From the NCBI GenBank assembly GCA_015057325.1, contig SVEQ01000016.1:1-61205 (forward strand): a stretch of 61,205 nt of DNA, given 5' to 3'. A program made the position numbers and the translations under genes. Source of the stretch: Lachnospiraceae bacterium. Its GTDB lineage: Bacteria; Bacillota; Clostridia; Lachnospirales; Lachnospiraceae. The notes beneath the pieces are model-generated. The model searched no databases. It saw only the letters and a list, made by a program, of their open reading frames with translations, and was not told the DNA's origin. Shown here piece by piece: positions 7,586-8,567 of the stretch (positions are counted from its first letter, which is position 1; every line of letters starts with the position of its first letter).

Positions 7586-7599
7586 ACTACTTGTGATTT

Positions 7600-7671
7600 G
7601 CACCAGTAGCTCAGTGGATAGAGCACCGGCCTCCGGAGCCGGGTGCGGAGGTTCGATTCCTCTCTGGTGCA
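7600..7671 (+). tRNA. tRNA-Arg (anticodon CCG)
   Basis: A 72-base cloverleaf. Acceptor GCACCAG (7600-7606) pairs with CTGGTGC (7664-7670), discriminator A7671. D stem is GCTC/GAGC. Anticodon stem CCGGC/GCCGG holds the loop CTCCGGA with anticodon CCG. T arm is GGAGG-TTCGATT-CCTCT. CCA is not encoded. The gene after it begins only 21 bases downstream, so the two are probably co-transcribed. Confidence 0.95.
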
Positions 7672-7692
7672 TTTTTTATTAAGGAGAAACTT

Positions 7693-8115
7693 ATGAAATA
7701 CGATATTTACTGTAACACAAAATCAATATCAAAAAACAGAAAGGCAGCAATTAATGAATTTACAAAAAGACTTTCTGCCTACTGCAAAGTATCAATCACA
7801 AACAAAAAAGACACGCTTCCCAATATAAATCTTGACAAGGAAGGTTGCCTTTTAATTACAATTACTAACGGTCCTTCTACTTTTTCTTCAGAAGAACTAT
7901 CTTCGTACATAAATGATATTCAATTAAATGGGATTTCTACCGTGTATGTTGTTGTCGGATACAACGCAAAAGAGATTGAGAAATTAACTACAGATAAAAT
8001 CAAATCACTTTCTATAATCAATGCAAACATATCTAACGAAACTTTAATGATTCTTACATTAGAACAGATATATCGTGCATATACTATTATTCAGGGCAAA
8101 ACGTATCACAAGTAG
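7693..8115 (+). CDS. Divergent RlmH-family protein lacking the SAM-binding motifs
   Basis: 140 residues, start ATG with AAGGAG six bases upstream. It aligns by eye end to end with RlmH, the 23S rRNA pseudouridine-1915 N3-methyltransferase (SPOUT fold). It keeps the N-terminal KRLSAYCKVSI segment (25-35), a strand like the family's central one (GCLLITITNG), and the C-terminal EQIYRAY (124-130) with terminal YHK (138-140). Where RlmH has the cofactor loop GGSLG it has VVGYN (87-91), and where RlmH has FPHQ it has NISNET. It therefore probably cannot bind SAM itself. The convergent 153-aa RlmH keeps exactly the motifs missing here and lacks those kept here, so I infer a non-catalytic partner subunit. 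It overlaps that gene tail-to-tail by 10 bases. Confidence 0.85.
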   Translation: MKYDIYCNTKSISKNRKAAINEFTKRLSAYCKVSITNKKDTLPNINLDKEGCLLITITNGPSTFSSEELSSYINDIQLNGISTVYVVVGYNAKEIEKLTTDKIKSLSIINANISNETLMILTLEQIYRAYTIIQGKTYHK

Positions 8116-8567
8116 GTCACTGTATCGCACAACGCTTCAACAAGAACCATTCTCATTATCTGATGTGGAAACGTCATTTTTGAAAAGCTAAGTTTTAACT
8201 TAGCCTTATCTTTTATCTTTTGAGCAATTCCCAATGAACCTCCAATTATATATGTAACAGAATCCATATTAAGTTCCATTGCTTTCTTTATGTGGGTGCA
8301 ATGTTCTTTTGCAGAAATCTCTTTTCCCTCAACACAAAGTGCAATCACATAATCACGATTAGATAGTTTTGAAAGCATTGGCTCACACTCTTTTACAAGA
8401 AATGATTCCGTTGCAGATTCACTCATTTTCTCCGGTATTTTTGTATCAGGTAGCTCTATTATTTCAAGAGTGTGTCCCATCTTTTGAAATGCACCACTCT
8501 TCTCTTTAATAAGATCTCGATAAAAACCTTCTTTGACTTTTCCAACGCAAATTATCCTAAATTTCAT
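8106..8567 (-). CDS. rlmH: 23S rRNA (pseudouridine1915-N3)-methyltransferase RlmH, with altered tail
   Basis: 153 residues. SPOUT methyltransferase that, in the characterised homodimeric enzyme, methylates pseudouridine 1915 in helix 69 of the assembled ribosome. The cofactor-binding knot is intact: YVIALCVEGKEIS, IIGGSLG (107-113) and LSFSKMTFPHQ (126-136). Two conserved parts are missing. The usual KRLSRY-type segment near residue 25 reads EKSGAFQKMGHTLEI. The C-terminus reads MVLVEALCDTVTYL and stops, without the family's EQxYRA...PYHK tail that contacts rRNA. Reading the other frames past the stop does not recover that tail, so a simple frameshift does not explain it. The convergent 140-aa paralog supplies both missing parts. 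Confidence 0.92.
   Translation of the reverse strand: MKFRIICVGKVKEGFYRDLIKEKSGAFQKMGHTLEIIELPDTKIPEKMSESATESFLVKECEPMLSKLSNRDYVIALCVEGKEISAKEHCTHIKKAMELNMDSVTYIIGGSLGIAQKIKDKAKLKLSFSKMTFPHQIMRMVLVEALCDTVTYL

Follow-up and report, generated by a model that had tools for sequence, protein, structure and literature searches.

RlmH (also known as YbeA or OrfX; PF02590/TIGR00246) is a homodimeric SPOUT methyltransferase, with solved chains from Escherichia coli (5TWJ, 1NS5), Staphylococcus aureus (4FAK) and Bacillus subtilis (1TO0). It has been called the smallest SPOUT methyltransferase, and its symmetric dimer makes one asymmetric active site (PMC5430550). In the parts of the E. coli structural study drawn on here, monomer A is said to contribute the SAM pocket together with K11, K42 and R43, and monomer B to contribute the C-terminal tail along with R25, R26, R142 and R154 (Koh et al., 2017; PMC5430550). 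In the same parts, one of the two SAM sites in the homodimer, the second, is described as empty below 500 uM SAM, the helix bearing E138 is assigned a role in both dimerization and catalysis, and mutants at E138, Y152, H153 and R154 are described as having undetectable activity in vitro, with dimerization and SAM binding retained in the tail mutants (PMC5430550). A homodimer makes good use of only one of its SAM sites, which leaves the other site, and one of the tails, redundant.

Here we describe a locus from a Lachnospiraceae bacterium in which two neighbouring genes, rlmH-A and rlmH-B, are both homologous to RlmH over the domain and between them carry the residues of a single composite active site. 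They differ from RlmH in being unlike subunits, each without one half-site and both below the NCBIfam equivalog cut-off. Judging from their sequences, it is highly likely that the two proteins (A and B below) form an obligate heterodimeric RlmH making m3Psi1915 in helix 69 of the 23S rRNA, in which the physical pairing and the methylation target are both predicted from the residues that each protein retains.

The rlmH-A and rlmH-B genes of the window

The window, meaning the whole stretch of DNA that was analysed (61,205 nucleotides), carries the following features at this locus.

7599..7672, forward strand: tRNA-Arg(CCG), found by ARAGORN, directly 5' of rlmH-B and ending 20 bp before it
7681..7686, forward strand: Shine-Dalgarno-like AAGGAG of rlmH-B, read from the sequence, just 5' of its ATG
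7693..8115, forward strand: rlmH-B, 140 aa, putative subunit that donates the tail, contacts rRNA and has no SAM pocket (PF02590, E 8.4e-16)
7765..7782, forward strand: KRLSAY of B, at the positions of E. coli R25/R26, RNA-contact residues of monomer B
8062..8112, forward strand: EQIYRAYTIIQGKTYHK of B, with the equivalents of E138, R142, Y152, H153 and K154
8106..8567, reverse strand: rlmH-A, 153 aa, putative SAM-binding subunit without the catalytic tail (PF02590, E 6.6e-35)
8106..8138, reverse strand: C-terminus of A (EALCDTVTYL-stop), which stands in place of the expected EQxYRA...YHK
8160..8171, reverse strand: FPHQ of A, SAM bight 3, including H129
8229..8249, reverse strand: IIGGSLG of A, SAM bight 2

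The original prediction had placed two complementary, convergent RlmH-family genes in 7600..8567. Both open reading frames are real and overlap by 10 bp as described, the common segment being 8106-8115, but the genes begin slightly after 7600, where the tRNA gene lies. Membership of the RlmH family holds for both proteins, with PF02590 scores of 120.8 bits for A and 58.8 bits for B against a Pfam gathering cut-off of 27; the match of A covers profile positions 1-141, without the last 13, and that of B covers 1-154. Both also match the solved RlmH chains 1TO0, 4FAK, 1VH0 and 1O6D, and A has an 87% identical match on a contig of Lachnospiraceae bacterium RUI386, the nearest named relative retrieved. 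With the best NCBIfam model, A scores 144.9 and B 57.1, against an RlmH equivalog cut-off of 172, and neither protein reaches any listed model. The motif assignments were likewise borne out by alignment: A has IIGGSLG and FPHQ, lacks the KRL segment and the YHK tail, and ends in ...VEALCDTVTYL; in B, both KRLSAY and EQIYRAY are present and the protein ends in YHK, VVGYN taking the place of the IIGGS of A and NISNET that of its TFPHQI. The genome (99.3% complete, 24 contigs) was also checked for a further rlmH; none was found, the profile search giving exactly two PF02590 matches, A and B.

Distribution of the pair and partition of the active site

A PF02590 search covered 440 distinct genomes (G000-G439), with overlaps between sets counted once. 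The sets comprised the window's genus (26 genomes), its family (150), four further genera (1, 8, 1 and 1), its class (137, at least 90% complete), its phylum (119, at least 95% complete) and the families of G253 and G243 (6 each). Proteins of identical sequence, whether A or B, entered the count once for each genome; loci L031, L032, L033 and L037 (contigs already under G handles) and L038 (a short, chance-like match) were dropped. An A and B pair was found in 42 genomes, a single gene in 349, no match in 46 and an irregular arrangement in three. Thirty-two of the pairs lie in the window's family (22 of the 26 genomes of its own genus, seven of the eight of g107, and one each in g41, g71 and g132) and ten outside it (five in f43 and one each in f20, f21, f27, f55 and f90), so that the two-subunit reading reaches far beyond the window, to scattered relatives in seven families. 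In 42 of 440 genomes there are thus two co-conserved homologous proteins, of which, as judged by sequence, A has a SAM site and B does not. The co-conservation anticipated for the two genes was borne out: among the 440, no genome was found in which an intact B is joined by a full-length RlmH that is itself intact, and none has a tail-less A without B, excluding G299 (frameshift) and G397 (contig end).

The 349 single genes extend to profile position 154, save that of G397, which is cut by the contig end; those of G088 and G152 are start-truncated, and G287, G309 and G310 have second PF02590 matches under the Pfam cut-off. The irregular genomes are G437, with B alone, cut by a contig edge, and no A detected; G299, whose gene is frameshifted; and G254, from the genus of G277 (which has the pair), with a broken relic of B at about 1223 of L121 and A undetected, where both halves may have disappeared together. 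The 46 genomes without a match include 14 of the 119 phylum-set genomes, which are at least 95% complete, and this absence indicates that the modification may often be dispensable. Tail fragments at the contig edges of G120 and G274, beside full-length genes, were considered as B and rejected, as FPHQ or FPHN is present and the canonical profile scores best.

In three further genomes an intact full-length rlmH is accompanied, a few kb off, by a partial or broken second copy (L122 882-1199 in G306, L124 8769-9247 in G411 and L125 2345-2455 in G396). In staphylococci, mobile elements recombine at the 3' end of rlmH, and these second copies resemble such events.

The final alignment held 42 A, 42 B and 56 canonical proteins, the last being three solved chains, L034-L036 (L035 translated from an internal start), the best-scoring 30 of the 133 single genes of the family and 20 hand-picked from 114 class-level single genes. 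The YHK end is present in 42/42 B, 0/42 A and 55/56 canonical proteins (the exception, from E. coli, ends in YHRE), and both G[GA]SxG and FPH are present in 42/42 A and 0/42 B. G103, S105 and G107 are retained in every A; in B, G104 is found in 0/42 and G107 in 1/42, yet G103 is still present in 34/42, which fits less well with a clean split. Conversely, K25 and R26 occur in 42/42 B (14/42 and 8/42 in A, respectively), as do R142, Y152, H153 and K154, with E138 in 41/42 B and 40/42 A. The one B without E138, that of G436, counts against the pattern, with Lys at this position and D in its A. An internal gap at E. coli residues 52-57 is common to all 42 B proteins.

When columns conserved in at least 90% of canonical proteins were scored as kept if retained in at least 90% of the 42 A or B proteins, the 48 conserved columns divided into 22 kept by A only (including G9, E56, L72, G76, G104, G107, H129 and R133), 14 by B only (including E22, K25, R26, Q139, Y141, R142, Y152, H153 and K154), one by both (E138) and 11 by neither. 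The union of a pair covers 44.4 of the 48 columns, a value attained in 0 of 2000 permutations of the B columns, which average 39.7 (sd 1.05). The partition seen in the window is not chance, as 42 of the 440 genomes show it too.

It could be supposed that A is a self-sufficient homodimeric methyltransferase with substitute tail chemistry, and that B acts apart from it, in ribosome binding or regulation. The retention of E138 and of the SAM pocket in A would fit such an enzyme, as would the dimerization and SAM binding of the E. coli tail mutants. This reading is nevertheless improbable, as single mutations in the E. coli tail suffice for activity to be undetectable in the parts of that study drawn on here (PMC5430550), tail-less A does not occur without B in the genomes counted above, no common replacement motif is apparent among the 38 A C-termini compared, and the catalytic tail is exactly what B retains.

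The predicted heterodimer can be compared with the monomer roles assigned in the E. coli structure. The lists of Koh et al. (2017; PMC5430550), as given in the parts of the article used, supply 13 monomer-A and seven monomer-B residues, or 20 of 24 tabulated positions, K11, R43, D73 and S145 being omitted as positions where the E. coli residue differs from the canonical consensus against which retention was scored. Of the monomer-A list, a mean of 11.98 residues is kept in A, 2.17 in B and 12.38 in canonical proteins; for the monomer-B list the means are 1.69, 6.98 and 6.93. By this alignment-based measure, the partition between A and B agrees with the monomer roles in the E. coli enzyme. Two observations fit less well: K42 is a lysine in only 25 of 38 A proteins, and E. 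coli K11 and R43, given to monomer A in that study (PMC5430550), are unconserved in the canonical set.

Another reading accepts an A-B heterodimer and has it methylate a site or RNA other than that of RlmH. Heterodimeric tRNA-modifying enzymes are described, in the part of the source consulted, as tending to take several substrates (PMC6382703), and a helix 69 pattern search of the window's own assembly gave no match, a result that is uninformative on the target. A change of target is rendered very unlikely by the retention across the pair of the catalytic residues and of the R25, R26, R142 and R154 positions (as listed in the parts of Koh et al., 2017 used here), and by the fact that the pair replaces RlmH and does not supplement it.

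Within the window's genus, both genes are under purifying selection. In two species pairs, dN/dS (Nei-Gojobori) is 0.084 (against G010) and 0.121 (G024/G025) for A, and 0.112 and 0.191, respectively, for B. That rlmH is on its way out, with A and B as pseudogenes or sequencing artefacts, might draw on the 46 genomes that apparently dispense with the enzyme and on the broken B of G254, but is scarcely credible against these low ratios (0.08-0.19), open frames in 42 pairs from seven families and catalytic residues invariant among the 25 B proteins compared. Mean pairwise difference is 0.52 for A and 0.60 for B (32 genomes) versus 0.31 for the 30 best-scoring of 133 canonical family proteins, a comparison that is indicative only given the different taxon sampling and the choice of best-scoring canonical proteins. 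Distances of A and B in the window's family are correlated (r 0.87, 496 genome pairs), which says nothing beyond shared ancestry.

Origin, arrangement and possible mobility

In a tree of 96 proteins, which took 20 of the 37 pairs then known, the 20 B proteins, from six families, form a single clade (UFBoot 99), and the A proteins are scattered. B looks like one lineage, in six families in the tree and seven in all; B evolves fast, however, and long-branch effects could have inflated the support for a single clade. The origin of A was examined in trees without B, one with 12 A proteins (the smaller test) and one with 15 A and 32 canonical proteins from which the tail columns were removed. In the latter, the A of G253 falls inside canonical f20 (99), that of G277 inside canonical f21 (100) and that of G352 (f90) beside canonical f7 (99); the A proteins of f43 and f55 group together (100), as do those of the window's family (84). 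The A of f27 is weakly placed (56), having fallen among the A proteins of the window's family in the 96-protein tree. Forcing monophyly of A costs 127 log-likelihood units and is rejected (AU test, 10,000 replicates), and the smaller test likewise rejects it (dlnL 106, p-AU 0.0005, with a program warning that 5000 replicates were few). This rejection implies that the tail was lost more than once. The f20, f21 and f90 placements are firm, and the best tree holds five or six separate A groups, joined by a weakly supported backbone, with separate tail losses in f1, f20, f21, f43/f55, f90 and perhaps f27. On these phylogenies, A has several origins, each from a full-length RlmH that was resident.

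The original prediction had explained the pair by a duplication followed by reciprocal loss. The split between SAM site and tail stood; a local duplication confined to the window's genus did not, as the pair occurs in seven families with B as one lineage and A polyphyletic. The best-fitting history is one in which B spread and tails were then lost repeatedly. In f20, a single canonical gene is present in four of the six genomes, and another one has no match; together with the one B lineage and the many origins of A, these single genes favour horizontal spread of B. Horizontal transfer is probable, judged by the tree and by one copy flanked by insertion sequences; the alternative is an ancient B that was lost repeatedly.

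That flanked copy is in G253 (L096 636-3977), where B lies between two near-identical IS605-type tnpB genes that have a 300-bp identical direct repeat in common, beside a Y1 transposase gene and near a PemK-like gene scoring just below its Pfam cut-off. The A of this genome is missing just YHK and has the C-terminus ...EQIYRAFKILNNEP (final letters NNEP). The flanks suggest a mobile B, as in a recent arrival.

B was also considered as a plasmid or phage gene and this was rejected: in the records compared by tblastn (8 of 22 plasmid and 8 of 22 phage records), the matches span 465-480 bp, the full length of the canonical gene, and B was recognised in none. Seven of the eight plasmid records are annotated rlmH, and the sole viral-contig match is canonical RlmH.

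The arrangement of the two genes varies. Within the window's family, A and B converge side by side in 31 of 32 pairs; they lie in tandem, A then B, in G243, G311, G352, G435 and G436. In 6/42 pairs they are apart, by about 2.5 kb in G156, 8 kb in G438, 14 kb in G253 and 46 kb in G207, or on different contigs (G277, G439), so that co-regulation is not universal. A tRNA-Arg(CCG) gene precedes B in 11 of the 14 loci scanned from the window's genus (L003, L004, L005, L007, L008, L010, L012, L015, L017, L018 and L022) and in L071 (G131). The scan of eight other pair loci gave none, and that of 28 canonical rlmH loci gave one. In the window, this tRNA gene and B are probably in one transcription unit, and the tRNA gene may be the entry site of B.

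A predicted two-subunit RlmH among known systems

In the proposed heterodimer, A would provide the SAM pocket, made of bights 1-3 with GGSLG and FPHQ, and B would provide the share of the second monomer, namely the YHK tail (its Y152 being the proposed base), together with the network of E138, R142 and Y152 and the patch formed by K25 and R26. B would have arisen once and then spread, probably horizontally; with a tail donor present, the resident RlmH would be free to shed its tail, a loss repeated independently, and A and B would become mutually dependent. Put more broadly, B may be an old, once-arisen and mobile SAM-less RlmH. On entering a genome it would pair with the RlmH already there and relax selection on that protein's tail, whose loss then makes the host dependent on B, a ratchet from homodimer to obligate heterodimer that would have been repeated; we regard this reading as evenly balanced.

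Among the matches listed by a full-text literature search whose coverage leaves most subscription papers and bioRxiv outside, no bacterial RlmH heterodimer was found, and the word 'heterodimer' is absent from the part of a SPOUT review that was consulted (PMC9508554). The A/B pair would offer a natural view of a symmetric enzyme turning into a two-part machine, and amounts to a mutational dissection done by evolution, in which the residues retained by each subunit point to the contribution of each monomer. The phylogenetically separate tail losses, together with G253, where YHK alone is gone, allow a test of whether obligate complexity can arise through relaxed selection after the gain of a partner. 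If the reading of B as a mobile tail donor is true, these genomes hold natural replicates of an experiment on constructive neutral evolution.

The original prediction likened the pair in principle to Trm6/Trm61, in which one subunit binds SAM and its partner is a paralogue without SAM, as proposed for A and B; that enzyme differs in having a Rossmann fold and acting on tRNA. Trm6/Trm61, the tRNA m1A58 methyltransferase, is named in a source (PMC1829167) whose part used here also proposes, for yeast Ygr283c/Ymr310c, a SPOUT paralogue as an inactive partner subunit, which is its likeness to the A/B pair. The yeast case differs in being a suggestion only, in a eukaryote and in another SPOUT family, COG2106 (PMC1829167). 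The mt-LAF5/LAF6 pair of the trypanosome mitoribosome differs in being eukaryotic and mitochondrial, and is named in a paper on an A-loop 2'-O-methyltransferase, in the part of which that was consulted it is, like the predicted A-B enzyme, a SPOUT methyltransferase heterodimer on the large ribosomal subunit (PMC12123411).
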